Source of the DNA: Coprinopsis marcescibilis
Lineage: Eukaryota > Basidiomycota > Agaricomycetes > Agaricales > Psathyrellaceae
Length of the DNA: 64,000 nt
NCBI GenBank assembly: GCA_004369085.1
Contig: ML210156.1
Location: forward strand, 245,896-309,895
Direction of reading: 5' to 3'
Shown piece after piece: positions 37,406 to 62,833 of the stretch. The first letter of the stretch is position 1, and every line of letters starts with the position of its first letter. The translations under genes were made by a program, and so were the position numbers. The notes beneath the pieces are model-generated. The model worked only from the letters and a program-made list of their open reading frames with translations, ran no database searches and was not told the DNA's origin.

Positions 37406-39305
37406 TCACGAGAAGAACTTTTCGCGCAAGCGACCCAATAACCTGTCGCGCTCCTTAATGGGAGGGAACGCTTTCTTGTCCTTCCCGGCCCTCTCAAAAA
37501 TCTTGACAACTTCTCTAGTGGTAAGCTGGTTTTTGCTCTCTAGTAAGAGTGTCTCCGCAATCCGGTAGCAGAAATTTTGGGAAGCGGAGGAATCCCTCGA
37601 CGGCTGGAGATTGCTGTTCAGGCTCCTCACTTCTGCGCAAGCCGCAATGAGATCCCCCGTGTCTATTGCTGTATTTTTCGGCGTTGCCAGGTATCCGATA
37701 GCCCTGGGTTTTAGGCTATTCTTGGGTAGTTCGTTTTTCAGGTAAGTGTATAATTTGTAACCCCCATGCCTTCTGTCTTGGATCGCACTAGAGTCCTCCA
37801 GATAAAGCACAGCGCAGCTTGGGTTGGTCTCTCTAACCGTAACAGTTGGCATCGATCGAAACTGAAGGGCGAAACACTTACTGTGAATGCTGCTTCATCC
37901 AGCCAACGATGGCCGCTAGGATATGTGTGTCTGTGATCTTGATATCACTATCGTCAAATCCAGGCGTGTCCACGACGACGAAACGACAGCTTTCAACTTC
38001 GTTCTCTGGATAGTGCACCTCAACGTGCCTCGTTTGAGAGGAAAGGGTGTGTCCCTCCTTCGCGAAGGTTTGGTTGAAACAGATGTTGGAGAACTGTCAA
38101 ACCACATTGAAGATCCCTTAGCTCGTGATGCAGCGATATCGGGGCAATAAGTGACTCACTGTGCTTTTACCAACACCCGTCCGCCCGATGAGTCTACAGC
38201 ATTGGAGAACGGGTTGGTGAGTGATATAGCTCATATTGGGGTGGCTATACTAACAGAACAAGTGGCTTTGTTGATAGTAGCCTGTCTTCCGCTGATGTCA
38301 ATGGTCTCCTTCTCGGGTCATTGGCCTGAAGGATCGGGTCATTGGCCTGAAAGATCGGGTCATTGGCCTGAAAGATCGGGTCATTGGCCTGAAGGATTGG
38401 GTCATTGGCCTGAAGGATCGAATCGATGGCTTGGCAGACACTGTTCTTGGAATAGAATGGCGCAGGGTTTTTGAGGATGATTGGGTCCTTATTAGGAGCA
38501 CCTTGCGGAGTTGCAGAAAGCACTTTATATAAGAAGTAATTTCTCAACTGCTCATGTCGAGAGTGGGCAATTTCGAAGTTCACTTGCTCCCAGTACGTCG
38601 TTACAAGCACCACCGTCGACTTCGGCTGGGTTGAATGGAACTCCTCCATTAGTCGGAAGAAATTTAGAGCGCGGTTGCGCACTCGTTGGTCGCTAATGTC
38701 GTGCATGTAGATGATACCCGCCAAAGGATGTTTTCCGTATCTGGTTCGTTGCAAGTCATCGTTAGAATAGTGCGTTGGGGACAGGCCTTGAGCAGAGCAG
38801 AACCTTAAGGCAAGCCAGTCACGAATATTTTCAAATATTGACTGGTCATCAACCTCGAAGCTATTGTCGAAGCCCGGTGTATCGATAAGGACGAGGCGAC
38901 TAAGAGGGAGATGAATCAGTATTTGAGCTGAGAGAGTCCAGCCATGTGAGGTCCAGGACAGTTCTCCCGAGCGTACCTGTAGCGATGCTGTTGGCAAGCG
39001 GACTCTGGGGGCAAAGGCGAGCTATAACCCCTAACTTTGGAGGTTTCTGAGTTCATTGTACTCGATTCTTCGGCCTCCTTTCGACCGAGAACTGAATTTA
39101 TGAACTGGAAGGAACGAGGAAGATCTATATTGGCCATGAACCCTGGTTCAATTTCGAATGCTTACAGTGCTTTTGCCACACCCAGTGCCGCCCAGGAGTC
39201 TTATTAGACTGTCAAGATTGTCATTTTGACTATGGAATGCCTTAGCTCTTACAGTACTAGGATATCGTTTGGCCTGGCGGAAACATCTGGGATGAGATTG
39301 GACAT
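37406..39305 (-). CDS. G1: two-domain AIG1/GIMAP-like GTPase (type A + type B)
   Basis: Exon 1 (39305-39253: MSNLIPDVSARPNDILV) leads to the 34-nt P-loop exon 39199-39166 (LLGGTGCGKST), then FINSVLGRK, VLIDTPGFDNSFEVDD, LAGIIYMHDISDQRV and a weak G4 (VTTYWEQ, Asp to Glu). The C-terminal part of domain A holds five copies of a 7-residue repeat, ANDPI(L/F)Q. Phase-2 donor GTTAGT near 38,248 then joins PLVL to a second 34-nt exon, 38193-38160 (LIGRTGVGKST), giving domain B: VVVDTPGFDDSDI, CAVLYLEDSSAIQD, a TP in place of G4, and the end LREKFFS. Domain B could be misread as a separate gene because a stop follows in the unspliced frame; the splice frame and the same layout in G7 argue for one protein. 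Function unknown. Confidence 0.8.
38315..38419 (-). repeat. 21-bp coding minisatellite, five units, in G1
   Basis: Five head-to-tail copies of a 21-bp unit (plus strand GGGTCATTGGCCTGAARGAT, then C or T). They differ only at one G/A position and one terminal T, so they are nearly identical. As the unit is 7 codons long the frame is kept; the minus strand encodes ILQ or IFQ followed by ANDP, five times. No other cluster member has it. Confidence 0.97.
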
Positions 39306-39631
39306 GTACTTCTGAGTGATCCGCGAGTTTCTGAGGGGATGTGGTCAACGTTGTTCAACGATCAACGCCCGCTTGCTCCAGCACCATTAGATACTTATGT
39401 GCAACTGCAATGTGAATACCATGCCGTGTGAAACAACGTGATAGCCATGCACATGATGCACACGATGTTGACCAGTTTGGCGCTCATTATGTAGAAGTTT
39501 AGGACTCCGATTTACTTCCGCATCAGGCAGTTAAACGAATCAAATGATATGGGCATTGGGGATGTTGAATAGATATGAAAAAACATAAAGAAAGCAAAAT
39601 AATTTCCTCAGAGCCACTAATTACTGACTGT

Positions 39632-40796
39632 TCACGCTATCTTGGTTGGTTCTGTGGACGAGTCCAGTCGACGTCTGCGCAGCCAGAGGAAAGCCAGGAT
39701 CTGCGCAAGTCATTAGAACAGGAGAACGAAGGGATATCCATATGAAAGAATGCAAACGTACAGGTTTGAAGTACGCCTTGATTTTCTGAAGCGGTGACGG
39801 TGGCCAAGCAAGCTCCTCGATGGCTGCTCTTGTGGCAGAAATCTGGGCAAGCTGAGACCGATCGGTGTATAGGAGCAATTCCAGCAAGCACCTCTTGAGT
39901 ACCTTGCCTGCGGCCGTTTGAGGGATGCACAAGCCGCTTTCGAGCTCCTGTTGAAGCTGTACCAACAGTCGTGCAGCAACGGAAGCTCCATAGTGCCTTT
40001 TAACGATATGTTGAACCACATGGCGCTCTGTGTACCCATCTTTTATGTCCACGCATTGGGCACCTGCGTCGATCATTTGTTTGAAAAACGTCCCATTGAG
40101 ATCTGCACCACGACGAAGAGCACTGGTGTCTGGTGTCCTCGACCATTGTGTCTTTACTAGGATAGCTTTGTGCGCAGAGCCTGTGCCACAGACCTCTTCG
40201 AAGAGGGACAATGACATCTGTGTCTCGCGCACCAGTCGCTTCTGGGTCATGTCGTGTAAATATATGATGCCTGCTAGCTCCCGCGGGCGGCTGAAGAGGA
40301 TGTAACAAATTTGATTCAGCACACGTCTTGAGAGCGTCAAGGTTGATAGTGACTGAACTCACCCTCCCTGAGGTCGCAGAACGTTGGCAATTTGCTTCAG
40401 CGTGGCTGCATCGTTCATGTCTCCCCCAAAGAATCCTGGAGTGTCTATGAGGACTACCCGGTTCCCACCAATCATAGGGTTTGATTCGAATGGAGGGGCG
40501 GGGATTGGCTTGATAGATCGTGTACAGGTGCTGTAGGCGTGCGTCACCGTTGCCAGCTCCTGGCCAGAGTAATTGTTGATGAACTACGTCGTAATCAGCG
40601 TTGGGGTCGAGAACTGCTCAGCATGGACGCATACAGTACTCTTGCCCACTCCAGAGGGACCAAGCAGTCTATTTGAACGTAAGAGGCTTGAAATGTAATA
40701 AATAAGCGGAAGCTCTTACAGAATTAACGCGTCCCCTTCCTGAAAGTCGAACTCTTCGATAGCTGCATTCCCTCTGGTATCATTCCTTCTGGGCAT
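39632..40796 (-). CDS. G2: single-domain AIG1/GIMAP-like GTPase (type A)
   Basis: Start MPRRNDTRGNAAIEEF at 40796. Exon 1 ends DALI, then the 34-nt exon 40668-40635 (LLGPSGVGKST), FINNYSGQELATVTHAYSTC, VVLIDTPGFFGGDMND, an intron, and LAGIIYLHDMTQKRLV. The G4 motif reads VKTQWSRT: the specificity Asp of TxxD/TSQWD is Ser, so guanine recognition may be altered. After the G domain comes the family helix (CIPQTAAGKVLKRCLLELL). A consensus intron (GTACGT...GCAG, about 39,756-39,697) rewires the C-terminus to ILAFLWLRRRLD and a stop at 39632; unspliced reading would end at 39621 in a less plausible tail. The hydrophobic plus basic end could touch membranes (inference). It is divergent from the small membrane protein at 41231. 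Confidence 0.82.
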
Positions 40797-41230
40797 GGGA
40801 GTTCTAACTTTTACACGTCAGTGAGAATAGCAGGAGGGTTGAGCGTGGATGCAGAAGGCTTAGAACATGCCATGCAGGGCCTGCCCTTATTATTGACTGT
40901 CCGATACGCCTCGTTTTCTTGATGCACCCCACCCAAATCAGCCGAACATGTCGACCGGGATTATGGCCTCCATAGCCAACAGTATTAATAGTAGAGCTTC
41001 CTGTGGCTCTAAGTTTCACGGTTTGTCCTTATCGTTGCTGCTGAGTGAATAAGAAAGTGGTGCACTTGAAGTTGTAGTTGGCAAAGGGTACTTGGTCGAT
41101 AGTCATTACTTGGCCAAGCACAATGGGTTGAACCCGGGCCGTTCATGGGCCGTCGTTCCGATCGAAGGCGCACGGACCGCGGACGCGGTCGTCGACACGA
41201 TTGTGAACGGTGACGACAACCTCCTGGCCC
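40797..41230. other. 434-bp divergent spacer G2 / small membrane protein
   Basis: Start codons at 40796 (-) and 41231 (+) face outward, so both promoters must be here. Frames opening in it on either strand have no signature. No motif was singled out. Confidence 0.45.
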
Positions 41231-41769
41231 ATGTTGAGCGTCACCCCGACCGAGGTCGAAGAGCTGAAGCTCGAACATGTCAGCTACGATGTGGCCTCTA
41301 AGGCATTAGCGGTGCGTCCTCTTGATCTTAGTAACATGATTTAGCTCGATGAATTGTTTCGTAGGAATCCAAGAAGGAGGCATTCTTCGCTGGACTTACC
41401 GGAGGATTGGCGTCGGGTAAGATGTTTCAAAAATTAGTAGACTCAAACAGTCTTTTGACTGGGTCAACTTGAAGCGGTTATTGGATCTAGATTGCTCAGG
41501 TTTAACCGAAACACCACCTTGCTTTGCGGAATCGGTATGTCTTCCGATATAATTCGCATCTTCACGCCTCGATGACTTAAAAAACCTCATTTACAGCGAG
41601 CGGGGCGCTCTCTGGATATTACTTTGCCGAGGTACGCTCAGTTTCAGTAGAAAGGAGTGCCCATTCAATATCTCGCTTGAAACAGGCATTCAGGTCGACT
41701 GCCGTTGCCCAGTTGCACGCGGAAGACGTGCGTTTGGCCAAAGTCAAACTACAGGAAGGAGCAAAATGA
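41231..41769 (+). CDS. small membrane protein, unknown function (103 aa)
   Basis: Not visible as a long frame: it is built from five small exons whose phases all agree (41231-41311, 41365-41416, 41475-41534, 41597-41631, 41686-41769; 312 nt). The start is MLSVTPTEVEELKLEH. Two Gly/Ala-rich hydrophobic segments follow, AFFAGLTGGLASAVIGSRLL and TTLLCGIASGALSGYYFAEA, linked by RFNRN, with a charged C-terminal helix (QLHAEDVRLAKVKLQEGAK). The two-helix hairpin with basic loop resembles small mitochondrial or ER membrane proteins in general, but I do not recognise the family. It sits inside the GTPase cluster without sequence relation to it. Intron sites are consensus, which is the main support. 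Confidence 0.72.
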
Positions 41770-42248
41770 ACTCTTCGATCAGAGAGAGTTTCACCCTGTG
41801 GTCAGAATGATACCAGGTGCGTTGTGCGAAGCAGACTGGAACACGGATATCTGATGTTACATTCAAGGTCCGTGGTGAAGTAGTCTGTCACCGGCTTCTC
41901 TGCGTGAAGAACGATATCACATACACCCACCGCTCAGCCCATCTTCTGTGTCACAGCAAACCATGTCTACTATACAGTTTGGAATTCATGGGAACTCCCG
42001 ATTATCCGAATCCGAAGCGAAAGCAATCTGGCAATGATTATGTGGCCAGTCAACATATGCGAGCCAGTACATCGGCTCTTAATTACTGGCAGTGGAAGGT
42101 CAACTAACCCAGGGCCACGCGACGCGAAAGGTTTCTTCCACATATGAGTATTCTTACTCGATTACCTTTTGCTTTCTCAGGGACAGCCTGATTCCGCAAA
42201 GACGACATATTCATTCCGAGTGTGCACCAATAGAGCAGCAGGAACGCA
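41770..42248. other. 479-bp spacer upstream of G3
   Basis: Presumed 3' region of the small membrane gene and promoter of G3. No additional gene or repeat seen. Confidence 0.4.
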
Positions 42249-44234
42249 ATGAATCAAGATTCACCTTCCTATCTTCTCGACCACCCAAAGGACACAGATA
42301 TCATAATTGCGTGGGTTCTTCGACGACTTCTGTGTCTGTGTGTATCTGATCAAGCCAAATCAGGGTTCTAGGTCCCTTAGGATCTGGAAAGAGCCATGTA
42401 CGACATCTGTGTAACACCCGTCTTTTGAGGTAAACTCATCTGTGGATATAGTTCATTAACGACTACTTTGGTCGAACTGGATCTCCTGCGGTAGTCGGTT
42501 CCCCCACGACTTTGAGTGCATGTACAACCGACGTCGCCGCGTATTGTGCCCCAACACCAGAGATCGATTACGGCGGGAGACGCGTCGTGCTCTTGGACAC
42601 CCCTGGATTCGAAGAACCTTCATTTGAGGACAAGAATGCCCTGGATAACGTCTTGGATTGGATCAAGAAATACAGCCCTCGCCCAACGTATGTCTCAACC
42701 TTCCTCAACAAGTTACACCACTGACTGAGCCGCAGGCTTGCAGGCATTGTCTATGTTTATGATCCTACAGAGAAAAGGTTGAGGTCTTTCTGCGGGGGAA
42801 GAAACGGAGGGGGAGAAATGCTTGACGTCTCGCTTCGCTCGCTTCTCGGCGAAAACTTCGCCGAAAAGCAAGTGAGGGTGCTCATCAATGCCCATTGGCA
42901 GACGTTATTGAATTCAGACCCAGAGGCAGGGTTTAATCGATTGAAAAGTCTACTAGTTGAGCTTGACCGGCCTCCTAAACAAGTGCAAACGGATAATTTC
43001 CTTCGTCGGGTCAACTCTCCGCAAGATGTCAAGGCGATAGTCGATATGTTGGCTGCTACGGCGGAGACGGCGGCCCCGCCATGTTCAAACACCAAGGCAC
43101 CACTTCCACACTTAGAGGGACTGAAGCGTAGTGATGACAGTTACATCCGCGATGAAAACCACGACGACATTATCATCATGTTTGTGACAAAGAACTTTCC
43201 CTGTGCCGCCGTTGCTGATTTCTTTTTGAATTTAGGATTATGGGTGCAACTGGCTCTGGGAAAAGCCGGGTATGTCAATCACCCTCTTCTCCCTCAGTTC
43301 TTATTAACTTGTACCCCTTGCTAGTTTATAAATCAGTATCTCGGAGAAAATTGCGCCGACGTCGGGCATGAACTCACGTCTCAAACTCGGAAGATTGCAT
43401 GGTATTCGCGCGCATTGCCCTCAAGCCACAGTTTATATCCAAGGAACGTCATTCTTGTCGATACACCCGGTTTCAACCAGACTTTCGAGGATAATCCCGA
43501 GATCTTGCGTCAAGTTGGGGTGTGGCTTGCCGATACGTAAGCCTCGCTACCCACTTTCTTGCAGCAAAGAGCTGATGAACTGCGAAATTGTCTTGCGATC
43601 CAGGTATCATCGAGATTTTAAACTCGCTGGCATTGTTTACCTCCACGACATCCACCAGAAGCGAGCTCTCAGGTCTACAGAGCTGAACTTTTCCGTCTTT
43701 GAAAAGCTGATTGGCGAAGGACGGCTGGAGAAGATTGTGATAGCGACTTCTCACTGGGATGAGCTCCCACCTGAGTCGATACCCTCTTTCTCGGGACGAG
43801 AGAAGGAACTTCAGGACCTGTATTGGGGTCAGCTGCTGGAGCGAGGGGTCAGATATGGTCGGGTCGGTTCCGCGGACAGTGTTCATGCAATCGTAAACCA
43901 AATTCTGTCGCAAACCGCGACCGATGCCTCTGATTTGCATCTTCGGATACAGGAGGAGCTACTCCAGCTGAAAATGATCATTCCGGCAACAGATGCTGGA
44001 CGGCAGTTGAAGTATAGCATCGATATTCTGCTAGAGATCCTCCACGAAGATTTGCGCAAGGTGCCCGATGACCACATGGAGAGAGCCTTGCAATTGCGCA
44101 TGGCGAAGCAGGCCGCGAAGAAGCAGCTGAAGGAGCTTAGGATTCCTCTGCGATACCGCCTCAAAGCTTTCTTTAATTTGTTGGTGGCCTCATTCCCTCC
44201 TCTGAGCTCACTACTGATAACTAATTGGACCTAG
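42249..44234 (+). CDS. G3: two-domain AIG1/GIMAP-like GTPase (type A + type A)
   Basis: Seven exons, all phases consistent: 42249-42310, 42364-42397, 42452-42687, 42736-43179, 43236-43269, 43325-43536, 43604-44234; about 550 aa. Start MNQDSPSYLLDHPKDTDIII. Domain 1: VLGPLGSGKSH, FINDYFGRTG, VVLLDTPGFEEPSF, LAGIVYVYDPTEKRL, and a broken G4 (INAHWQTL). It has an extended Gly-rich insert (CGGRNGGGEM) and lacks the helical tail. A linker DENHDDIII then enters domain 2: IMGATGSGKSR, FINQYLGENCADV, VILVDTPGFNQTF, LAGIVYLHDIHQKRAL, ATSHWDE (intact G4), and the helix IIPATDAGRQLKYSI. Both P-loops end in Lys-Ser followed by H or R rather than T. An optional last intron near 44,190 (weak donor GTGGCC) would replace the final residues. 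Domain 1 looks like a pseudo-GTPase, domain 2 active. Confidence 0.85.
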
Positions 44235-44690: not shown

Positions 44691-45816
44691 ATGGCGAACG
44701 GAAACGAAAACAAGAAAAATGCAAAGTCATTCAAATGGGTGTCCAAACTCGGTTTTGGAAATGTGGAAGAGATTGATACCATCCCGAATCCCCGTGACGA
44801 CGATGTCCTCATAATGTGAGCCCGCCTAAAGGTCGATATGCGGTTGACTGACTCTTCGTTGTAAAGCGTAATGGGTCCGACTGGTGTCGGGAAAAGCACG
44901 GTGCGTACAATTGTTGATAAGCGATTGGATTAAATGGTCTCAATACCGTCCGCTCGCAGTTTATTCAGAAGGTTACGATGAGCCAGGATGTTGTGGTTGG
45001 TCACAAGCTGAAGTCCTGTACGCGGGATCTGTCTTGGCACCAATTGCCAGAGTCCCAGACAAAGGGCTTTGAGAATCGCAGAGTCTTCCTCATCGATACC
45101 CCTGGATTCGACGACACCTTCGACGACGACTCCCAGATCTTGAAACGAATTACAGCTTGGTTAGCAAAATCGTATGTGCATTGCACCCTCAACCGCATTT
45201 GAGCCCATTAATTACGAGCTTCTACAGGTACAGTTCACAAATGCCTATCGCAGGCATCGTCTATATGAACGACATCACACAGAAGCGAATGTTTGGATCT
45301 ACGAGGATGAACCTGACCATGTTCCAGAAGCTCTGCGGCGAAGAGTCTTTTCAGAAGGTTGTGATGGCTACCTCTCAGTGGGATACACTCTCCAACGAGT
45401 CAATCGGCACCGCAAGGGAGGAACAGCTGAAAACCAATTTTTGGAAGGATGTGTTGGACGGCAATGCAACATATATGGCCATGAAGGAAGAAGATAGTCT
45501 CACCGCCATTATCAATCACATCTTGGCGACCTATCGCATGATAGAGCAAGGACATTTGATGGTTGCAGAGACACTGAAGATTCAGGACGAGATCGTGGTT
45601 CTTGAGAAATCACTTCCTGCGACATCAGCAGGACAGGAGCTGCGGTATACGCTGCAGGAGCTTATGGAGCTCCAGAAGGCTGCCCTCAAAAACGTTCACG
45701 ACGAAGAAAGGAAGAAAGCGATCGAGGAGAAGATGAAGCAACTTGGTGACCAAGTCAGTGGGCTGAAGATGTCGTTCTCAGAGCGTTTCAGGCGGTTCTT
45801 CAGGTTTGGTAAATAG
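44691..45816 (+). CDS. G4: single-domain AIG1/GIMAP-like GTPase (type A), canonical
   Basis: Exons 44691-44815, 44867-44900, 44960-45171 and 45228-45816 give 319 aa. A basic N-terminus (MANGNENKKNAKSFKWVSK) precedes DDVLI and the P-loop VMGPTGVGKST. Then come FIQKVTMSQDVVVGHKLKSC, VFLIDTPGFDDTFDDDSQIL, AGIVYMNDITQKRMFGSTRM, and G4 VMATSQWDT. All G1, G3 and G4 residues are intact. The C-terminal helix has the family motif LPATSAGQELRYTLQELMEL and ends in basic/aromatic residues RFRRFFRFGK, which could be membrane-attracting (inference). A Thr in the FIQKVT segment may serve as the G2 residue. Best template of the cluster together with G9. It converges on G5 with 191 bp between stops. Confidence 0.92.
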
Positions 45817-45964
45817 TTTTACATTGTGCTTCAGTTAACATTCATAGTCATAATATTTTGGTGTATCCGTTTCTATTTATTTAATACTGTGCTGGGTCGA
45901 ATACATAGACTGATCATTACCGCCAAGGAAGAGGATGATCGATATTGATGCAACAGGTGACTAG

Positions 45965-45993: not shown

Positions 45994-46007
45994 GAATTTA
46001 CTTCTCG

Positions 46008-47688
46008 TTAGGCGAAGTGGGCCCGCACTGTATCGCGAATATAGTCAAAGACCTTTGAGAACCACGAACGACGCTTGAAGCCGGGCGAAGGACCTCTCAT
46101 TTTGGGAAGGATTTTTGTCAGTTCTTGTTGCACTTCATGAAGAGATAGTGGCGACTGGCCATCAGCCATGTTGGCCACCTCGTGACAGAATGATTGCAAA
46201 CTTGTGGTGTGCGACGTGCGGGCTGCACCATGTGTATTGAGCTGATATCGAGGACGGTCGTTCTCGTCAAGAGCATACGAAGGGTTCGAAGGGTCTGAAC
46301 CCGTCACAACCCTGACGAAACACTTCTCTGCTACCCCTCTCATCAGTCCCTGCAAGAGTTGGCGGTGGTGGATATGGTTTTCGTCCCGAAGGAGTATGAG
46401 AGTGCAGCGAGCCGTAGCGAGGGAAGAACTATACAAGCGCATTCGTTAGTACCCTTTCACGGCCAGAGATGTAAGTTCATTACCGATAGTCAATCCAGTC
46501 CACAAGTTCTTGAAGGGTTTCCCGGTCGGATATTCCGTCCGAATCAAATCCTACTGTATCAACGAGGGCAGTTCTAGAGTCCATAGCTGTGTTCATGTAA
46601 GGTGAAACGACCTGAGTTTCAGAAATCAAGCCACTTCCAACCGCGATCACATTTGAGGGCAAGCCGAGGTAGTTTTGGATGAACTAGTAGGGACATTATT
46701 GGCTATCTTTGCGCGGGGACATTTGCAAGCGGAACGTACGCTGCTTTTTCCTGCCCCAGTCAAGCCGAGAACCCTGGAGAGCAGTTTGTTGTGAGCGGTT
46801 AAAGCTGAAGGGAAGGATGTACCCATTAGCCTGCTTACAAGATAATCCGTTTTGCGGCTGATATTATCCCTTCTTCAACTCGAAACGCATCCAGAACGTA
46901 TTCGATGGCCTTCGTGCAGTCCTTCTCTGTTTCGATTCGCGTCATATATGCCGCACTGAACTGAGAGCCTTTGAGGGCGTTCTCAACCTGAGCTCCTGCT
47001 TCGAGGTCGACGTCAGTCCACTGTGTTGTGCCCACAACAATCCTTGAGAAACTCGGTGACCGACAGAGCTTCATCAGCTTCTTGACGCACACGGAGTGGA
47101 ATCTTGTCAATCTCGCTTGCGTAACCGGATAGAGATACACAATTCCAGCGAGCCTCATTCCATATCCAGGATATCTATGGTCATTTAGTAAGGGAACGGA
47201 AATGATTCACCCTAGGGGTAGTCCCATGGGAATGATGAGCTCTCACGTATTGTGCAGCCATTTGGATATTTCGTCCAGAATGGCATCCTTCCCTATCTCA
47301 GGATCACCGTCGAGTCCTGGGGTGTCCAGAATTACGAGGCGCCGGGGAGCCCGGTCAACTCCGAGTTTGAAGTGGTAAGGGCGCAATTCCTTGGTGTTTG
47401 GCTTTAATCCACTGCATGCTTCTGCGCAAGGTTGACTAGGATCGTCGTAATGACTGGATTTTAGCCAATTGATAAACTATCGAAGGTAATATCAGCATCT
47501 TCAGCATAGTTGTATTGGGAAGTCCCGCCCTCACAGTACTCTTTCCACACCCGGTCGGTCCGATGATACTGTGGTCGCAAAGGGTTGTTGGTACAGTACT
47601 AGTGGCACTAGTCCAACGGATAGAGTACGCACGCTATGACGACGTCTTTTGGAGAGGGATCCTTGACTGTACGGGTCCATGTTGCCAT
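46008..47688 (-). CDS. G5: two-domain AIG1/GIMAP-like GTPase (type A + degenerate type B)
   Basis: Start MATWTRTVKDPSPKDVVI at 47688. The 34-nt exon 47568-47535 gives IIGPTGCGKST. Domain A: FINWLKSSHYDDPS, LVILDTPGLDGDPEIG, LAGIVYLYPVTQARL, and G4 GTTQWTDVD (TSQWD altered). It runs via AAKRII into a second 34-nt exon, 46773-46740 (VLGLTGAGKSS), then FIQNYLGLPSNV, ALVDTVGFDSDGISD (DTPG is DTVG), an intron, and TLILLRDENHIHHRQLL in place of a normal core. The rest is ARTSHTTSLQSF... with a basic end (KRRSWFSKVFDYIRDTV). Domain B keeps Walker A but has lost DTPG and any G4, so nucleotide turnover there is doubtful. An upstream open frame beginning MLNPHGSLEV was rejected as the start because the MATWT frame alone splices correctly. 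Confidence 0.8.
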
Positions 47689-49265: not shown

Positions 49266-50122
49266 TTACATTATTGTGCATTTGCTCTTCTTAGGTTTAG
49301 GTTTAGGACGAGCTTTGATAACGCCACCGTTACTTGCGTCTTGCAAGACACTCAACAGCTCGCCAAGCTCCAGTTGGCTTCCCCCAAGTGCACATTCAAC
49401 CACATGATGGCAGAAGTTCCCCGAAACTGAAGACCGCTGTATTTTAAAGGCATTTTTGTTCAGCTCCTTCAAAATTTTACGCGAATCCTTAGGCTTCGGT
49501 TCTACTCCGGATCCTGTCTTTGCCTTTCCGGGTGTTCTGAGGCGTATAATGGCGGATTTCTTCGTTTCGTCTTTAAATCTCTTTTGTAGGTAGTCGAAGA
49601 TTCTTCTGGCGCTATCTGCGCCAGGAGAGTCCTCATCCTCCAAGTATAGCACGGCGCACTTCTCGGCGCCGCTCTTGCGGGCACTAATTATCATGTTTCA
49701 GAGAAGTGATTTCGTCATAATACGTTGGACTTGAACAGACCTTTCCATTACCCACGAAATAATTTTAGCCATGATATCTGCATCCGACATTCCCCAATTC
49801 GAGTCGTTCGAATTTGTGTCGTCAAATCCAGGAGTGTCTACCAAAGTGCAATTGCCTAGGGAATATTCTTCGATTTGGTGTGTCTCGGAGAATAGGCTAG
49901 CATATCCAACTTTGGCTACAGAGCACCTGTCGAAGTATCCGTTCACAAACTGCCAAAATTGTTGGAACCTCCATCTTGATAACAATTCAGCTCTGCTTAC
50001 CGTGCTTTTCCCTGAGCCCGTACGACCTATTAGCCTGCATAGGTCAGACAGAATTCGATAGGTGGGTGGAAAGAGAAGAGGACGAACAAGACGAATCCCC
50101 AGTCACTTGTAGCCCTTGACAT
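49266..50122 (-). CDS. G6: single type-B GTPase-like protein with C-terminal CaaX box
   Basis: Start MSRATSDWGFV at 50122; exon 1 (50122-50088) ends at a GTTCGT donor, the same as the G7 domain junction. The 34-nt exon 50034-50001 gives LIGRTGSGKST, then FVNGYFDRCSVAKVG, CTLVDTPGFDDTNSND, an intron, and CAVLYLEDEDSPGAD, RRIFDYLQKRFKD and a TP motif (RLRTPGK) where G4 would be. The C-terminus is polybasic KARPKPKPKKSK followed by CTIM and the stop: a textbook CaaX box (Met at X favours farnesylation), so the protein is predicted to be prenylated and membrane-bound. It is the only cluster member with this end; the other good type-B domains end in FFS. It appears derived from the second half of a G7-like gene just upstream, having gained its own start (inference). 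Confidence 0.8.
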
Positions 50123-50353: not shown

Positions 50354-52071
50354 CTAAGAGAAGAAGCTCCGTAACTTTGACCAGATGCTGTTCTTATCCT
50401 TCTCGTTTTGCTTCTCCTGTTTGTGGTGACGATTAGGTTTGGAGGCGTTCCGTATGGGTGACTTGTTCCTTTTGGGCGGATTAATGATAGAAATGAGCTC
50501 TTTGGCGGTTAGGGATCCATTACTGCGGTGCAGAAGAAAATCCCCAGCACTACGGCAGAAGCTCTGGGTTTCACCCATTTTAACTCCTGGATCGAGATTC
50601 GGAAACGTTGGATTCAGCGTTTTCAGCCCGTTGCACAGCACCTGCAGATCCTCTGACGTCCCAGACGATGAAGGGGTTTTTATCACGTCGATACTTTCTG
50701 GCTTCAATTCCCGAATTCGCCGGAAAAGCAGGCGGTCTCCATGCTCAGTTTTCTTGTCCAGGTAAGGATACTTGGATTCGTCAACCAGATATAAGACAAC
50801 CCCAGGTGCACACGGATGCCTAATTGGTCAAAAATTTTGACATTGATGGGATAGCTATTTTGTGTACTCACAAATTGCTGAGGGCTTTAGCGATTTCCAC
50901 TGGGGCCTTTGCGTCAAGTGACCAGGTGTCGTCGTAACCAGGTGTGTCTATGACAATATAATCGCAAATATTCTTGTCGGCTCTCGGGTAGTGTATCTGG
51001 GCGCTTTTTGTCATCGACTTCAAGCCATGGCCGACTTCTGCCAGCTCTTCCCGGAAACAGAGGTTGACAAACTAGAATCGTGAATAAGCCCGCCATAAAC
51101 GGGTTCTCAGACTCAGGATCCCACTTACAGTGCTTTTACCAGCGCCGGTTCGTCCGAAGAGCCTGTAAGAGTGGTATATTTAGCTTCTTCAGCAGGAGAG
51201 GTAATCGAGCGACGAACAAAACAAAGGGCGTGCAATTGATAGTTGAGGTAATCCAGTCGCGAATGGCTTCCCAATCTTGGGGGCTGTAGCTCCCATCGAA
51301 CGACGAGATGTGAATGGGCGCCCAATAGAGCATTCGATCCTGGAACATCGTTGTGAGATCCCTTACTAACTCACGCTCTCTTGCGTTCGCATCTTTAGGG
51401 CGATTGTCCCAGTGAGACGTCGCCAAGAAGATTGGCACAGTCCGGGAAATGTCGAGGGACGTGATAAAGTCGTAGAGCAGCCTATTTAGTCTCTGCCATT
51501 CCTTTCTTGTTTTGGATATCGGATGAAAATAAAGGATGCCCGCCAGCTGAGTGTTATCCCTAAAGGCGGATCCCGAATGGAACAATCAGAGTCGGAAAAT
51601 CGTCCAGATATTGAAGCTATACCTTGGTATAAGCGCTTGAACTTGCTTCACGGCTTCATTTTTGTTACAAAATTCTCCATCTAGCCCCGGAGTGTCCACG
51701 AGCACCAGCCGCCTGATTGTTGATGACCCTGATTATGACTATGACAGAGCTAAGAGTCAATCGAGCTTACCTCTGGCAACGTTGATTACCTCGACGTATA
51801 CTCAGTGTCCTTGTTGGATAAGCCTTCACTTTGGTGGTGATGATCTCGTTCGATCTACCATCGACTGCGGCTTGGACGAACTTCAAGTTCGAAATGAGAC
51901 GGACGTATTGGCAGCTTAGTAGGCGAGGAAATTGAGCTTACCGAGCTTTTCCCGCTACCGGTGGCCCCTAGCAGTCTGTAGTACATAGTCATTCGGCCAT
52001 AAATCTAGCACAAGTAAAACAAGAGCATACAAGATACGGTCATTCGAAAAGGCCACCGCCCCATCTGCCAT
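50354..52071 (-). CDS. G7: two-domain AIG1/GIMAP-like GTPase (type A + type B)
   Basis: Start MADGAVAFSNDRI at 52071. The 34-nt exon 51975-51942 gives LLGATGSGKSS, then FVQAAVDGRSNEI, RRLVLVDTPGLDGEF, an intron, LAGILYFHPISKTRKEWQRL and G4 LATSHWDN. After WITSTINCTPFV a GTTCGT donor leads to a second 34-nt exon, 51162-51129 (LFGRTGAGKST). Domain B: FVNLCFREELAEVGHGL, DYIVIDTPGYDDTW, VVLYLVDESKYPYLDKK, DVIKTPSSSG where G4 would be, and a basic tail ending WSKLRSFFS at 50354. The A-B order, junction intron and FFS end match G1, so these two are structural duplicates on the same strand 11 kb apart. Domain A appears catalytically complete; domain B has Walker A and DTPG but no recognisable guanine-specificity motif. 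Confidence 0.83.
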
Positions 52072-52852: not shown

Positions 52853-53967
52853 ATGCCCAGGAAACTTCGGAAATTGTCTGATCGATGGAAAAAGCAGAGG
52901 AAGGCTGGAGACAAGATCATGGACGATGCACAGGCAGACGATTTGATTATTCCGTGAGTTCTACTTCCTGTTGCTCTTTACATTGCCTAACCACTGTAAT
53001 CTAGGCTTATGGGTCCAACCGGTGTAGGGAAAAGCTCAGTACGCTTTGACCTTATACTCCTTCGGGGCTGCACTCAACTTACTCCGCCACAGTTTATCAA
53101 CGCCTATCTTGGGACCGCCGTCGCCCAGGTTGGCCATGAGCTAGAGTCGTGCACCAGGCATATCGACTGGTATTCCACGATATTACCCCCCAAGTCATGC
53201 TACGCGGGCAGACGCCTCATTCTAGTCGATACACCCGGGTTTGACGACACCTACGCTGATGATGCTGAGATTCTCCGGCGAATTGGGGTATGGCTTGCTG
53301 CCTCGTGGGTATCGTCTGACTTGAATCTAGGAATAGAAAATATCTGACAGACTCCCCAAGGTATGCAAATGGCACGAGCCTCGCTGGAGTTATTTATCTC
53401 CATGACATCAACCAGAAGCGAATGTTGGGGTCGACCCGCCTTAACCTCAAAATGTTCGAACGGCTCGTTGGTAAAGACTCGCTTCCCACTGTCTCCCTCG
53501 TCACAACGCAGTGGGAAACGGTCCGCGTTCAGGCAGGAGTGGACCGAGAGAAGGAACTGAGTGCCGAGTTTTGGACAGACGCTCTGAAAGGCGGTGCTAC
53601 CGTGTCCCGCGTCCAAAAAACCCCAGAGCATCCGAAGCCACATCTTGACGTGGTGGAGAACGTTTTGCGAAGACACTTCGAATCCAAGGCCAAGGCCCGC
53701 GCTCTGCTAATTCAACAGGAGCTTGTCGATAAAGAGCGCATTATTCCACTAACTACTGCGGGACAGGAGCTTAAATACTCTCTTCAGCATGTCCTTGAGC
53801 TTCAGAAACAGCTAGGAGACAGCGTCGATGATGATGATAGAAGGAGAGAACTTGTTGACAGGATTGAAGCAACCAAGAATCAAGTCATCGCGCTCTCCCC
53901 GACAATGAAGGCAAAGGTGAGATCATGGATAAAAGATGTACGTCTCTTCACTCTAAAATTCGGATAA
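52853..53967 (+). CDS. G8: single-domain AIG1/GIMAP-like GTPase (type A)
   Basis: Exons 52853-52953, 53005-53038, 53093-53304 and 53361-53967 give 317 aa. The strongly basic N-terminus MPRKLRKLSDRWKKQRK is followed by ADDLII and P-loop LMGPTGVGKSS. Then FINAYLGTAVAQVGHELESC, LILVDTPGFDDTYADDAEIL, LAGVIYLHDINQKRMLGSTR and G4 LVTTQWET (Asp to Glu). The helix IIPLTTAGQELKYSLQHVLE is followed by a charged coiled-coil-like segment and a stop at 53967. Exon 3 is 212 nt, exactly as in G4 and in domain 2 of G3, supporting a recent common origin. The D-to-E change in G4 is mild; activity is possible. Tandem with G9, 630 bp upstream of it. Confidence 0.92.
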
Positions 53968-54597: not shown

Positions 54598-55721
54598 ATG
54601 GCCAAAAAGAATGGAAAGAAATGGAAGAAATCCGAGAAACCCACTGACAAGAAGTTGGACGGAAGATCCGATGACATTATTATCCCGTAAGTACCCTGGC
54701 TTTCCGAGCCTTGGTATCATTGATATCTGACGATGGCTCAGCATTATGGGTGCTACAGGAGCGGGGAAGAGCACCGTAAGTAGACACTGGCGTCTGAAAC
54801 AGTGATTTGTGCTAATCGTTTGCCCGCAGTTCATCAATGAATACATAGGGAAGACTGTAGCGAGAACATCCCCGGAGTACAACTCGTGTACGCCCAATGT
54901 CGAAGCTTACCTCCATACTTTGTCCTCGAAGAGACGAATTGTACTCGTGGATACTCCCGGCTTCAATGACAGCCACGAGGACGAGACAGAGATCCTTCGG
55001 CGCGTCGCTGTGTGGCTTGCCGCATCGTACGTACTTTGTTCGCGCCTTTGGCCTTTGTAGTAGCCTAACTGAAGATTTTTTACAGGTATGAGAAGAATAT
55101 GAAAGTTGCAGGCGTTATATACCTCAACGACATTTCTCAGAAGCGGATGTATGGATCCACGCGCATGAACCTCACGATGTTCCAGGAGCTTTGCGGGCCA
55201 AAGTTCTTCCACAAGGTTGTGATGGTCTCCACACACTGGGACACTGTGTCTCGGTCGGTGGGTGAGTCCAGAGAGACGGAGCTCAAGCAAAATTTCTGGG
55301 TCGATATTCTCGAGAATGGTGCCACTACCGAGCGTGTCATGTCCAACCCAAAGAGCTCGGATGTCAAGGCTATTGTCAACAAAATTGTGAGCCGAAATAT
55401 GGCGAGCAGCTCCAGCTCCCATGACGAAGCTCTTGCACTGCAGAAAGAGTTGGTCGAGCTCGATAAAAGCATTCCTATGACCGGTGCAGGAAAGGAACTC
55501 AAGTATACTCTCAAGGAGCTCGCCGAGATTCAGAAGCAGGCGGCTTCAGACGAGACCGATCCCAGGAAGAAGGAGGAGCTGAGAAAGAAGATGGTCATCG
55601 TTCAGCAGCAGATAAAGGAGCTGAACATTCCTTTCAGCGATCGATTGAAGAGTTTCCTTGGACTGGTGAGTGACTCACTGTCCTTTTCGCGTACTTTTTT
55701 CTCATCGATTTCTGTTAGTGA
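54598..55721 (+). CDS. G9: single-domain AIG1/GIMAP-like GTPase (type A), canonical
   Basis: Exons 54598-54686, 54742-54775, 54830-55026, 55086-55665 and a last exon beginning 55719. About 300 aa. Basic N-terminus MAKKNGKKWKKSEK, SDDIII, P-loop IMGATGAGKST, FINEYIGKTVARTSPEYNSC, RIVLVDTPGFNDSHEDETEI, VAGVIYLNDISQKRMYGSTR, G4 MVSTHWDT, helix SIPMTGAGKELKYTLKELAE, then a Lys/Glu coiled coil and LKSFLGL. A consensus donor (GTGAGT) follows LGL and the matching acceptor TTAG is followed at once by TGA, so the last coding exon is only the stop codon; reading through the intron instead would add about 42 hydrophobic residues. I prefer the spliced form because G2 also has an intron at this spot. All G boxes are intact. 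Confidence 0.9.
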
Positions 55722-56095: not shown

Positions 56096-56841
56096 ATGGC
56101 CTTCGATTGCCTTGATTGCAATAGAATTTTCTATTCCGAACATGCAATCGAAAGCCACTGCGAGGCCAAGTACCACCGTCGTAGCTACGGCTGGTATTGC
56201 GATCTCTGCGACAGAACTTTCTCGACAGAACGAGGGTTGGAACAGGTACTGTCGTCCGTTGCTGCTCAGGGGTGGGCGCTTAATCGTATATTAGCACTGC
56301 GAGACGGCTACAGCTCATCGCACCTGCGATGTATGCAACCGTACATTTGACACTGTGGACGGATACGAACTTGTAAGAGTCTTCGTTCATAATCTGGATA
56401 ACCTTACTCTTATTGATTGATTGCGCCCTTTAGCATTGCGAAAGGTCTCTCCAGCATCGTCAACGACTACGGGCTCAACAACGCCCAGTCGAGTGCCCCA
56501 TCTGCGAACGGACCTTCAATTCCCCTTCGGCATACGCTCAGCATATCGAATCAGGGTCCCACGGCGTAAATAGGCACCAGATAACTCGCGCGGTGCAATC
56601 GCTGAAGGTTATTCCTAAAGTGACCCTGGACGTGCACCCCGCTTTTCAATCCGGTGTAGCCCGAGTGGAGACATTGGATAAGTATCTACCGGCCCTTTCC
56701 CCCGGTCCCCCCGAGGAGAGCAGGGTGGCCCCCAGCGCTGGGCCTCCCGATACCGCCGCACTCAACCTCGGAGTATCAACCTTCTATGTTAACGCATGCC
56801 ACATCTGCATGCGTACATTCCGAACTATTTTTGCGCTGTAA
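56096..56841 (+). CDS. multi-C2H2 zinc-finger protein
   Basis: Exons 56096-56245, 56295-56372 and 56434-56841 give 211 aa. Four C2H2 fingers are complete, with Cys-x2-Cys-x12-His-x5-6-His spacing: CLDCNRIF...HCEAKYH, CDLCDRTFSTERGLEQ/HCETATAH, CDVCNRTFDTVDGYEL/HCERSLQH and CPICERTFNSPSAYAQHIE. Introns fall in the same place, just before the first His of fingers 2 and 3, pointing to internal duplication. A fifth, CHICMRTFRTIFAL, is cut off by a stop before its histidines; a possible intron there could extend the gene to about 57,139 (an open frame without finger residues). The paired HC...H type fits RNA/DNA-binding jaz/U1-like fingers; target unknown. It lies between G9 and MED21, so it interrupts the GTPase cluster. 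Confidence 0.82.
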
Positions 56842-58275: not shown

Positions 58276-58528
58276 TACTCCTATCCTGGCATTCCGAGTC
58301 GCTCGGAGCTGCTTGGCACTCGAATCACTGATAACCAAAAGAGGAAGCTGTCGGGCGGCGCGACATGAATTGTGTTATCCCGCACGGGTTGGTTTGTCCA
58401 TGAACGACCATCATCGAGGGAGACGACGTGCAACTTATATCGCATCTGCCATAAAACCAGCACTATTAACGCAAATAGACCCCTTTTGAGTGTTTTGGAC
58501 AGCCACGACGACAATTGCATGCAGCGAA

Positions 58529-59207
58529 ATGCTGCAGGAGCTAACCCAGATGGACAGAATCACCCAACTTCAAGATGAGATTCAGCAGGTAAATATGGGG
58601 AATACGGATTCTTTGGCACTATCTGACGATGTATGACTCTAGATACTTGTTATAATGTCCAAGTCTATCACATACCTGACGAAGAGGTCCCACTTTCTGC
58701 AAATTAGCCCAGAGATTCCGCTTAGTACAGCGCAGCGAGACCCTGCGAAGTACGACCCTCCAGACGTCTTTGAAGGTGTGCACAGGTTTTACCGGCTGTG
58801 CGTATAGCTTGAGTCTCACCCTTATCTCGGGCAGCGAACAAGAAGGAACTGGTGACAGATTTGGTGGTCAAGGCAAAGCAGATAGAGCTTCTGATAAATG
58901 CATTACCTGAACCAGAAAATGAAGAAACTCAGGTGTGTTCTCTCAGATGCTACGCCATCGGAACTCCGTGTTCTCACATCAGGCTAGGCACGGCGATTGC
59001 AGGGATTAGAGGACGAAATCGCTATTGCAAACGCAGAATACATCAGCGCGGTCAATCGGGCCAGTACGTACTTCTTCATGGATATACGTGCCTTCCCTCT
59101 GTTACTGAACTGCAATTGCAGAGGATTTGCATTCTCAAATTGCCGAGGTTCTTCGTGCGCTCCTCGATGAGGATGATTCGGACTTACTGGCTCAACATCC
59201 CGATTGA
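58529..59207 (+). CDS. MED21: Mediator subunit 21 (Med21/Srb7)
   Basis: Five exons agree in phase: 58529-58588, 58643-58775, 58835-58932, 58988-59063, 59122-59207; 150 aa. MLQELTQMDRITQLQDEIQQ is the standard N-terminus, followed by MSKSITYLTKRSHFLQISPE, DPAKYDPPDVFEANKKELV, DLVVKAKQIELLINALPE, a coiled coil (LQGLEDEIAIANAEYISAVN) and the C-terminal DLHSQIAEVLRALLDED. Med21 is an essential small coiled-coil subunit of the Mediator middle module; it pairs with Med7 and bridges to RNA polymerase II transcription initiation in the nucleus. Size is normal. It is a core gene sitting within the GTPase cluster, and the TIR element ends close upstream of it. Confidence 0.93.
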
Positions 59208-59646
59208 AACCATCCGTGTGGACCTTAAATCCTTTGACCCTGTCTTCGTCGACAACGTTCATCCCTCCGGGAGCTGCCTGATTTGGATGGGAAATGGGAA
59301 ATGGGAGATTTCAGATCGAGTCAAGGGGACGTTCGTGAAAACTGCGGCTCTGGTTCTTCGTACAGCATCTCCATCCCCGGTCCAAACTTGCAACCTTCAG
59401 CTTGTTCTGTATGTGGCAGAGCCAGATATCACTGCAAACATCGATTACTTCGCACACTCTTCACTTCACTTCTACCTGTCACATAGGAACGAAATAAAAT
59501 GACTGTCAGGTCAAGATTTCCGCGTTCATTGCGCTTCCCAGCGTGTCCCAATGCCTTCGGTGAATTCCGCATGGATGTGATGCGATCGAGAGATAACATT
59601 GGTTTGACATAAATGGTTTGGGTTATTATTCTTACTCTTGTCGAAC
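59208..59646. other. 439-bp spacer MED21 to G10
   Basis: 3' region of MED21 and promoter of G10. The open frame that continues past the MED21 stop in another phase is a shadow. No other feature. Confidence 0.4.
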
Positions 59647-62600
59647 ATGCTGAGCCCGATCAGAGGTCTGTTTCAGCGCGCAGGTGGAGAACTACTTCCA
59701 GATCCAAAACGAGACGTTCTCATCTTGTGAGTATCAGTTTGTCTTGGTGTGTGAGTGATGACTGAGGTTTCTGAAGGCTTCTAGGTCCTACAGGATCTGG
59801 AAGAAGTACAGTACGTCCTATCCTGTGGCTATCGTGTTCCATCTATCTAAACGAAAACAGTTCATCAAGGAGTACACGAACAAAGCTGTCAAGGTTGGAA
59901 AGCATCTATTGCCCTGTACAGATGAGGTCATACCTTATGAGGCGACTTCGGTCCTCGGAGGTTATGGACGTTTGGATGGACGTCGCCTGCTATTCGTCGA
60001 CACACCTGGCTTTGATGGCGAAGAAATCAACGACCTGATGGCCCTTACGAAGATATGCAAATGGCTTGACGAGCGGTAGGTTCAATACCCAAAATCTCAA
60101 CATCTAACCTCACCTGTCTTGGCTCAGGTACGATGTACGAATCAATGTTGCAGGAATTCTCTACTTTACGGATATCACCCTACCACGCATGACAGTCCGA
60201 TTGCAAATCAATCAAAATATCTGCAAGATCCTATGCGGAGAGACCTCGCTTCAGAAAGTCATCCTGGTGACGTCTCAGTGGGATGGCTTGAGGAATGAAG
60301 ATATCCCGACCGCGGAGATCAGAGAAATGAGTTTGCTTAAGGACGACCGCGTTAGGGTATTGATCGACGCACAAGCTGTCTATCGACGTATTCAGCACAA
60401 GCCCGAGGACCCCAGCGCAATTATCGACCATGTCCTCAAGGCTTTCATGAACATTGCCCCAAATCCGACGACGACGCCTGAATCGGTACACAATTGGCTT
60501 GAACAGTTAGAAGCAGCCTTCAAGGAGCTGGTGCAACGGCTGCTCACGTTCCTCTTCACCCGGCCAGCTAATTACCGAGCAGATGATATTCTGATCCTGT
60601 GGGTTCCCCCTGTTACTCTTGTCTATCGCTTGCTAACAGGTCGTTGTTCTGGTTCGCAGATTAGTTGGCCAATGCGGTGCAGGAAAGAGTACTGTATGTG
60701 ATCACCGCTCTCTGTTGAATCTACATAATTATACATCCTATCCTTTAGTTCATCAAGGAATATGCCAAAAAGGATGTACCGATTGGACACGGGCAGGCGT
60801 CATGCACTCACTCCATGGATTGTTATGAGGCGGTTTTACCTGATATACAGAAGATAGAGTCCTTGAGTGGTAGACGACTATTCTTGGTCGACACCCCCGG
60901 TTTCAACGACCCAGACCACGGAGACGAACGCACTTTGGGTCTTATGTTGAGCTGGATCCAGAAATGGTAGGCATATCACCTCAGAAATCTGAACGAACCG
61001 TTGACTTCGATATTCATCACAGTTACAACCTCGAGGACAACGTGGCGGGGATCATCTTCCTGCATGACATTGGGGAAAAGCGAATGACGGATATACCTAT
61101 TGTCGACATTTGCGATAAGCTTTGTGGCCAGTCTGGCTCTTTCAAAAGGGTTACGATGGCCACTTCTCAGTGGGACAACGACGTCACCGAAGCTAAACGC
61201 AAACGCGAGAGCGAATTGAAAGATAAACATTGGAATGACATCCTGGATCGCGGGGCTCGATACCAACGGATCAGCAACAAACCTGAAGACCCAAACAAGA
61301 TTATCAAGCACATCTTGCAAACCTTTGCCAGTGTCGTTTCTGCAAGTCAATCTGATCCGAATGCAAAGCAGAGGACGCAAACAAAGTGGATCAAGCAATT
61401 GGGCTTCAAGAACGAGAAGGAGTTCTTATCGCCTTTCAAGGTTCCTAGTGCACCCAAGCCAGGCGACATTGTCATTTTGTGAGTTTGAGGTCTTTATGGA
61501 TGAATGTCTGACCATTTTCAACCATCACTCTCCACAGAGTTATCGGCGAGGGAGGTGTTGGGAAGAGTACGGTGTGTTTTCTGCTTGTAATTCTTTTCTC
61601 CGTTCATTCAAATCGCTTGTAGTTTGTTGCAAACTATACCGGACAGGGTGTTTTAATATCGGCTGGTTTTGAACCCGTTACGACATCTGTTCGGTGGTAC
61701 GAAGCCACGCGCTGGGCAAATACTACCTCGTCACGGCGGGTATTCCTTGTCGATACTCCCCCTCTACCAGAACAGGACGATGAAGATGGGGTCAATTCAT
61801 TGACGGAGATCTCTGTTTTCCTCGCTAGGTGGTGAGTGCTGCTGAAATGATGCATGCGCTGTCTGAATGTGAAAATAGCTAATCTTACTGTTACCAACAG
61901 TTATCACGCCCGGATACAGATAGCAGGCGTGGTAAGCTTGTGGGACGTTTCATATCGACATTGGCGGGGCGCATCAATTCTCCGTACAGTCATGGAGCTA
62001 TGTGGACCCGAATTTATGACAAGGGTTGTGATTGCCATCCGATGCCGCCAGCATGACAGTGCCTATGCGGGACCATTCCAGCAAGCTGAAAGTTTGGGCG
62101 CTCGGCTTGAAATTTTTGGGGAAGGGGGAAGAGATATCGAATATTGTCAACGTATCGTTAACCGACTCCTGGAATTCGGACAGCAGGAAGAAATGCAGCT
62201 TATGAACGTCCAGAAGGAAATCGTCGACATGGGCAGACCGGTCTTGGCGACATCGGCGGGGCAGTCTCTGAGATGCAGCGCCGGGGGATTGGCCCAGAAG
62301 GTAAGCCTGTCATCTCAATCTCAACCAGTCACCCATACGGAACGCCTCCAAACCTAATCGTCACCACAAACAGGAGGTCTCGTCACCGTCACCGTCACCG
62401 TCACCCGGATCGCGAACCTTGAAATCAGCGAAAAAAGTCCTCCGGCACTGGATATCTCGAGATATGGCCTCTGAGGTACGCACCGGTGTATGTCAGATAC
62501 GTGTACTGATGACGCCTGTCGTGGGCATAGACAGGGCAACGGTCGAACCCAATACCTGAGATTGCACCTGATCCCATTCTCCGCGAAATCGATTTGTTTC

Positions 62601-62833
62601 CCATCGAGGATTTCATGTCTCAGCGGCCTTCAAGCTCCTCAAACAACGACCAGACCGTGTTTTGTGTGCCCGAAGTTCCACCTTATCCAATAGCGCATGA
62701 AGTTGACCTCTTCCCAGTCGAGAGGTGGAGAGGTGCCGTACCCTCAATGGACGGTGAAACCGACGGAAGTAGTGCAATTGACATCAAAATAGGGACTGTA
62801 GATGATGTGGCTGAAGGAAGGACGTGGTCCTGA
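59647..62833 (+). CDS. G10: three-domain AIG1/GIMAP-like protein (type A x3, first and third degenerate)
   Basis: Start MLSPIRGLFQRAGGELL at 59647. Domain 1: 34-nt exon 59777-59810 with LLGPTGSGRST (the Walker A lysine is Arg), FIKEYTNKAVKVG, LLFVDTPGFDGEEIND, AGILYFTDITLPRM, LVTSQWDG. The linker ADDILIL leads to domain 2: exon 60660-60693 (LVGQCGAGKST), FIKEYAKKDVPIG, LFLVDTPGFNDPDHGDE, AGIIFLHDIGEKRM, MATSQWDN, RISNKPEDPNKII; all boxes intact. The linker PGDIVIL leads to domain 3: exon 61538-61571 (VIGEGGVGKST), FVANYTGQGV, VFLVDTPPLPEQDDED (G3 Gly lost), AGVVSLWDVSYRHWRG, and AIRCRQHDSA instead of G4. The tail has an SPSPSPSP tract (6-bp repeats), an amphipathic KSAKKVLRHWI stretch and two look-alike acidic motifs, REIDLFPIEDF and HEVDLFPVERW. 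The last junction is best with donor GTGTAT near 62,489. The stop at 62833 overlaps the next model by 32 bp. Confidence 0.82.

Follow-up and report, generated by a model that had tools for sequence, protein, structure and literature searches.

GTPases of the AIG1/GIMAP class have undergone expansions in animals (PMC7053062), and AIG1 is over-represented among the dispensable genes of lancelets (PMC12373286). Members of this class possess R-fingers, as do TOC34/TOC159 (PMC11238149), and the "conserved box" that AIG1 proteins carry between the G3 and G4 motifs has the consensus xRFxxT (PMC7053062). In fungi, AIG1-Hint proteins are described from Glomeromycotina, in which the AIG1-type G domain is expanded (PMC8778642), and CARD+AIG1+HINT proteins from a few multicellular species (PMC12373286). 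The BRG (Big Ras GTPase) family, to which TBRG-1 of Trichoderma virens belongs, is found mainly in Sordariomycetes, with ten species giving a match (PMC8146680). Finally, a gene named Aig1 (GBC10892.1) is up-regulated when two isolates of Rhizophagus irregularis coexist in roots (PMC7490403). Here we describe a cluster of ten AIG1-like GTPase genes in the mushroom Coprinopsis marcescibilis. The DNA analysed, hereafter the window, comprises 64,000 nucleotides and forms the last 64 kb of the 309,895-base contig ML210156.1 (assembly GCA_004369085.1). We propose, at about even confidence, that this cluster is one of the arrays formed by a large mushroom family of AIG1-like GTPases related to Toc34 and GIMAP (the "paraseptin" group), which would act as dimerising membrane switches, most likely in defence or nonself recognition.

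Homology-guided spliced models, in which GT-AG introns join open frames (gene I follows its NCBI model), resolved ten genes with 16 G domains between 37406 and 62357, five genes on each strand and one to three domains per gene. A preliminary description of this DNA had given the same counts of genes and domains, on both strands and with one to three domains per protein. It had placed the cluster at 37406-62833; the left limit holds, but the last family exon stops at 62357. Introns measure 47-72 nucleotides, except for the first intron of gene T, which was chosen by hand and is 100 nucleotides long; genes E and T have uncertain starts. Gene prediction, whether its training set was the window alone or 244 kb, was discarded, since most of the family genes were missed or fused, and the models required support from homology and from the micro-exon described below. 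Two C. marcescibilis proteins at NCBI correspond to genes of the array: FA15DRAFT_61719 equals gene I at 100% identity and FA15DRAFT_61623 contains gene D at 100%. The genes, whose domains are of two types (I and II, see below), are the following.

37406..39305, minus strand: gene A, 516 residues, two G domains (type I and type II) with a linker of 7-residue tandem repeats; spliced model; Pfam MMR_HSR1 in two stretches, AIG1 46.3 bits.
38313..38417 (approximate limits), minus strand: 21-nucleotide tandem repeat in gene A, encoding the QANDPI[L/F] 7-residue linker units between the G domains; repeat search.
39621..40796, minus strand: gene B, 333 residues, one G domain; spliced model; AIG1 27.3 bits.
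42249..44234, plus strand: gene F, 550 residues, two type I G domains; spliced model; AIG1 27.4 bits.
44691..45816, plus strand: gene G, 319 residues, one G domain; MMR_HSR1 33.2 bits, AIG1 23.4, below cut-off.
46008..47688, minus strand: gene C, 436 residues, two G domains (type I and type II), the second with G3 DTVG; spliced model; MMR_HSR1 41.7 bits, AIG1 16.9, below cut-off.
49266..50122, minus strand: gene D, 231 residues here (255 in FA15DRAFT_61623), made up of one type II domain that lacks G4, C-terminal end KPKPKPKKSKCTIM.
49269..49280, minus strand: CaaX box CTIM, which follows a polybasic stretch and closes gene D; translation and NCBI protein P0172.
50354..51986, minus strand: gene E, 427 residues, two G domains (type I and type II), first exon and start uncertain; AIG1 40.3 bits.
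52853..53967, plus strand: gene H, 320 residues, one G domain; MMR_HSR1 35.8 bits, AIG1 24.0, below cut-off.
54598..55721, plus strand: gene I (FA15DRAFT_61719), 300 residues, one G domain, folded as P0001; 100% identity at NCBI and structure model.
59571..62357, plus strand: gene T, about 727 residues, three G domains, start uncertain; AIG1 33.8 bits; first domain with GSGRST, third with DTPP and lacking both Arg and G4.

The 21-nucleotide repeat of gene A could be polymorphic in length among strains.

All 16 domains share one gene structure: the P-loop occupies a micro-exon of its own, 34 nucleotides long, which is preceded by a phase 2 intron and followed by a phase 0 intron.

38160..38193, minus strand: P-loop micro-exon A2, strict pattern.
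39166..39199, minus strand: P-loop micro-exon A1, strict pattern.
40635..40668, minus strand: P-loop micro-exon B1, strict pattern.
42364..42397, plus strand: P-loop micro-exon F1, strict pattern.
43236..43269, plus strand: P-loop micro-exon F2, strict pattern.
44867..44900, plus strand: P-loop micro-exon G1, strict pattern.
46740..46773, minus strand: P-loop micro-exon C2, strict pattern.
47535..47568, minus strand: P-loop micro-exon C1, strict pattern.
50001..50034, minus strand: P-loop micro-exon D1, strict pattern.
51129..51162, minus strand: P-loop micro-exon E2, strict pattern.
51942..51975, minus strand: P-loop micro-exon E1, strict pattern.
53005..53038, plus strand: P-loop micro-exon H1, strict pattern.
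54742..54775, plus strand: P-loop micro-exon I1, strict pattern.
59777..59810, plus strand: P-loop micro-exon T1, GPTGSGRST, Walker A Lys replaced by Arg, flanked by AG and GTACGT.
60660..60693, plus strand: P-loop micro-exon T2, strict pattern.
61538..61571, plus strand: P-loop micro-exon T3, strict pattern.

The strict pattern was matched 15 times in the array and never in 100 Markov sequences, nor did it occur in 26 other loci of the genome (L001-L026; 205,731 bases, intronless AIG1-like genes included). The sixteenth copy, T1, was spotted by eye and matches the pattern apart from the Arg; the idea that the first domain of gene T lacks a P-loop was rejected, the micro-exon being there with its Lys-to-Arg change. 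P-loop words as such numbered 17 between 37 and 63 kb (15 in domains, two stray) versus 1.1 expected from 100 order-1 Markov sequences, no single one of which contained more than five. Elsewhere in the genome, the micro-exon was found 28 times in 57 kb taken from clusters on contigs C48, C201 and C139 (L027-L032). Since it is shared by all domains, the internal domains most likely arose through duplication of introns together with exons. The micro-exon also offers a simple DNA marker with which to count the family.

The proteins retain most of the hallmarks of an AIG1-type G domain. In an alignment of 83 family sequences, GxxGxGKS (G1) and DTPG (G3) are invariant (83/83 each) and T35 is present in 79; the SxT of G2 is kept at S60 in 82 and at T62 in all 83. 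R127 is found in 81 sequences, Thr or Ser at position 131 in 77, and both in 75. In the predicted structure R127 lies in the loop after strand 4, and the Arg-x3-T/S spacing fits the xRFxxT box as judged by eye. No Gln follows DTPG in the switch, an absence also seen in GIMAP, Toc and septins. G4 is where the family departs: unlike the NKxD, TxGD or TxCD-E of AIG1 proteins it reads TxW, with W158 in 80 of 83 sequences, D159 in 18, and D or E at that position in 25. The IAN/G5 motif R...F[ND]N was detected in two of 172 retrieved proteins and in none of the ten from the window. The TxW at G4 and the lack of the IAN motif mark the family as a divergent AIG1-like subfamily and not a true GIMAP.

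Alignment of the 16 window domains separated two types. Twelve are type I, and 11 of these combine the Arg after strand 4 with TxW, SxW or AHW at G4; the twelfth, T3, has lost both. Domains A2, C2, D1 and E2 form type II: they keep G1, the G2 Thr and G3 (C2 as DTVG), read VLYLED or similar in the strand-4 region, and show no G4 by eye, so that G4 is missing from the four type II domains and from T3. The preliminary description had listed 16 Walker A motifs, each domain with a DTPG-type G3. The Walker A Lys is in fact kept in 15 of 16 (T1 reads GSGRST) and DTPG in 14 of 16, C2 having DTVG and T3 DTPP; the earlier characterisation of the array as structurally diverse and partly degenerate was borne out. 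A homology search with gene D examined 201 candidates and returned its own NCBI record alone. Among the retrieved relatives, 36 of 172 contain at least two P-loops, and a loose pattern assigned a TxW-type G4 to both outer domains in 28 of these 36. The notion of a normal domain joined to a G4-less one as the general plan of tandem proteins was rejected, as 29 of the 36 have a TxW-type G4 in the last domain; in the remaining seven no DTPG-type G3 was matched and G4 was hence not sought. As far as seen, type II domains appear to be special to the window cluster.

Profile searches placed all ten window proteins above the Pfam cut-off for MMR_HSR1 and six (A, B, E, F, I and T) above that for AIG1; G, H and C fell below the latter and D was not listed. 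In the single-domain proteins the AIG1 match ends by about position 133 of 212, the half beyond G3 being unrecognisable by sequence. Pfam Septin was listed for nine of the ten and exceeded its cut-off in A, F and T; single-domain proteins scored below the cut-off of 26.2 (I 22.5, G 24.4, B 21.6, D 23.9; H not listed). In a sequence search of the PDB the best match was GIMAP4 (E 5e-10), closely followed by Der and GBP2, and GIMAP7 aligned over residues 21-301 (E 5.3e-7). TIGR00991 and/or TIGR00993 (Toc34/Toc159) were listed for all four proteins scanned, in every case far below cut-off (best score 37.8 versus 660.7 bits), and a phage search with P0001 gave no match. An AlphaFold model of P0001 (gene I; predicted local distance difference test (pLDDT) 91.3, predicted template-modelling score 0.89) consists of a Ras-like G domain with a helical C-terminal extension, and Toc34/33 or GIMAP structures fill Foldseek ranks 1 to 32 for this model (best E 1.6e-10). 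The model of gene D, a type II protein, has a mean pLDDT of 64.7; its G-domain core is of moderate confidence and its tail disordered. A pre-60S GTPase is its best fold match and GIMAP2 its third, which at that pLDDT lends weak support. Thus, Pfam, PDB and Foldseek matches uphold the AIG1/GIMAP likeness of the preliminary description, and G4 and the IAN motif speak against full membership.

The family extends well beyond the window. Related proteins numbered 372 in one search and at least 1,319 in another, and the matches listed comprised 171 different ones. Those listed with an organism name all come from Agaricomycetes (by look-up in the case of Jaapia, Leucogyrophana and Athelia). CC1G_12081 of Coprinopsis cinerea, with 64% identity, is the closest relative of gene I among the matches listed. 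Two other C. cinerea relatives, P0006 and P0035, bear the NCBI name "TKL/TKL-ccin protein kinase", their sequences resembling plain G-domain proteins; the kinase names are possibly a naming artefact. In the C. marcescibilis genome, about 78 domain-sized places, a lower bound, were counted on 23 contigs. The window cluster is one of several in this genome, and that on contig C48 is bigger, with 20 micro-exons in 37 kb. Further AIG1/MMR_HSR1-like clusters, of a different subgroup, lie at 3.8-23.4 kb of contig C187 and at 14.0-17.0 kb of C380 (L001-L006); in the two examined, the genes, such as L001:1453-2256 (AIG1 38.9 bits), are apparently intronless.

Pairwise identity among the 16 window domains ranges from 18 to 47%, and the best match of each window protein, over more than 120 aligned residues and among 38 proteins compared, from 34 to 45%. 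Therefore, the duplications in the window are old and none is recent. The sole recent family duplicate seen is a pair on contig C139 (L032), 81% identical, with synonymous divergence (dS) of 0.144, nonsynonymous divergence (dN) of 0.060 and dN/dS of 0.42 over 291 codons. In this single case selection is purifying but not strict. The view that the locus evolves rapidly, suggested in the preliminary description, gains no support from the age of the window duplications or from the ratio in that pair.

The C-termini suggest how the proteins might be localised. On average over 172 proteins, the last 14 residues contain 2.8 Lys or Arg, 5.6 large hydrophobic residues and 0.6 Asp or Glu; at least two Lys or Arg together with at least four large hydrophobics occur in 139 of 172, a figure that has no control set. 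Judged by composition, such basic, hydrophobic ends would fit a peripheral association with membranes. A transmembrane helix as anchor is unlikely for most (5/172 proteins), gene F being a possible exception. CaaX-like C-termini are present in two of 171 retrieved proteins, P0012 and P0131.

We postulate the following mechanism. Conserved G1, G2 Thr and DTPG predict binding of nucleotide and magnesium. By analogy with GIMAP and Toc34, the domains would bind GTP and form face-to-face pairs across the nucleotide, and R127 might serve as a finger that hydrolyses GTP in the partner, in trans. Tandem proteins would be built-in dimers with two partners in one chain, and the type II, GSGRST and DTPP domains may act as regulatory partners and not as enzymes. 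The assembly would be drawn to a membrane by the C-terminus, gene D presumably being farnesylated. Probably the family takes part in a response inside the cell for which having many divergent copies is an advantage; defence or nonself recognition is the likeliest. Such a role is plausible because of the analogy with the GIMAP expansions of animals and because of the induction of Rhizophagus Aig1. A bolder form of the proposal, namely an undescribed, greatly expanded GIMAP-like immune arsenal of mushroom-forming fungi, marked by the 34-nucleotide micro-exon and the TxW G4, in which GTP-competent domains are paired with G4-less, sometimes prenylated partners that set membrane site and specificity, appears doubtful.

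Among the alternatives, allorecognition would make the array a set of variable components of nonself recognition or heterokaryon incompatibility, GTPase switches standing beside or instead of NLRs. The family is large and diverse in many Agaricomycetes and clustered in this genome, as this would have it, and the Rhizophagus gene does respond to the coexistence of isolates (PMC7490403). However, the kinship of that gene with the mushroom family is putative, the window is devoid of recent duplicates, and the families listed for the ten proteins (best 25 for A and T) include no recognition repeats or death-fold domains; we rate this alternative as unlikely. A similarly low probability attaches to a developmental or housekeeping role, by which a mushroom-specific family of septin/Toc-like switches would have expanded with multicellular development and have no part in defence. 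The named proteins among the matches listed are indeed those of Agaricomycetes and the one recent pair is under purifying selection, but high divergence with motif loss in single domains is unusual for core developmental genes, as is a gene (D) that in one search had no relative beyond its own NCBI record. Still less probable is neutral birth-and-death, in which a duplicating GTPase family would drift without a common selected role and several copies would be heading for loss: it would account for GSGRST in T1, for DTPP and the lost G4 in T3 and for DTVG in C2, but spliceable open frames with consensus introns persist in 10/10 genes (two starts uncertain) and the micro-exon in 16/16 domains. 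That these are EngB/Era-type ribosome-assembly GTPases instead of AIG1/Toc proteins is improbable: MMR_HSR1 outscores AIG1 in nine of ten window proteins, Era, at a score far below cut-off, heads the NCBIfam list for P0001, and VIA-align puts bacterial YsxC on top (VIA Z 17.9 versus 16.5 for Toc33 and 16.2 for GIMAP2), all of which weighs against the kinship with Toc34 and GIMAP that we favour, but the Foldseek ranks, AIG1 above cut-off in six of ten, the box-type Arg with a long helical C-terminus and a growth to tens of copies unlike that of EngB/Era argue the other way.

Since the window ends where the contig ends, the array may extend further; a search of the window for telomere repeats gave none. 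The array is interrupted by an open reading frame (ORF) with a C2H2 zinc finger at 56434-56838 and by another at 58813-59499, whose Med21 match is below cut-off. To its left are an Rtf2 gene (36.4-37.1 kb), a cyclin, a PH+PBD ORF and two ORFs with weak matches, one to a beta-propeller and the other to SPO22. A 54-nucleotide inverted repeat, 98% matching, connects 50414-50467 with 62323-62376, linking the 3' ends of two genes, E and T, that are otherwise strongly diverged. The 26-nucleotide core of the repeat occurs in just these two places in the genome; a short conversion or insertion is a possible origin.

The kind of protein is already known: databases use "AIG1-type G domain" or "GTPase IMAP", and AIG1-Hint is in print (PMC8778642, PMC12373286). 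Databases contain over a thousand relatives, named for example "P-loop protein". In the literature searched, no paper on a mushroom expansion of the AIG1-like family was found, and the word "GTPase" occurs nowhere in a survey of fungal NLRs (PMC9815663) or in a review (PMC10197012). As far as that literature shows, there is no earlier description of the micro-exon, of TxW at G4, of type II domains without G4 or of the CaaX tail. Should the defence or nonself role be true, fungi would gain another large intracellular family beside the NLR proteins. The role of the family is testable through CC1G_12081, the relative of gene I in C. cinerea, which is a genetic model.

Several known systems invite comparison. 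Prenylated GBPs and K-Ras4B have a polybasic tail with a CaaX-type end, as does gene D (KKSKCTIM), but the gene D domain lacks G4 and the tail is confined to a single window protein. Septins match the fold less well (TMq 0.36-0.38) than Toc and GIMAP do. By description, the BRG family likewise is fungal, has "P-loop" and "GTPase IMAP" annotations, a poorly conserved G4 and a member in Laccaria bicolor; it differs in being mainly of Sordariomycetes, with ten matching species in place of arrays. Set beside the window proteins by description, AIG1-Hint and CARD+AIG1+HINT proteins share an AIG1-type G domain in fungi, and Hint and CARD are absent from the domains listed for the ten window proteins. 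Toc34/Toc33 provide the best Foldseek matches (E 1.6e-10, TMt 0.64) and have a G4 that is likewise not NKxD. These are, however, chloroplast import GTPases, whereas fungi have no chloroplast; identity to the mushroom family is 14-17%, and NCBIfam Toc models score far below cut-off. AIG1/GIMAP proteins differ in G4, which in the mushroom family is TxW with S, D, G or E as the next residue, and in the IAN motif (2/172); they have in common with it the GxTGxGKS G1, the SxT G2, the DTPG G3 and, as judged by eye, the Arg in the box after strand 4, together with a helical C-terminus, tandem clusters and multi-domain proteins.

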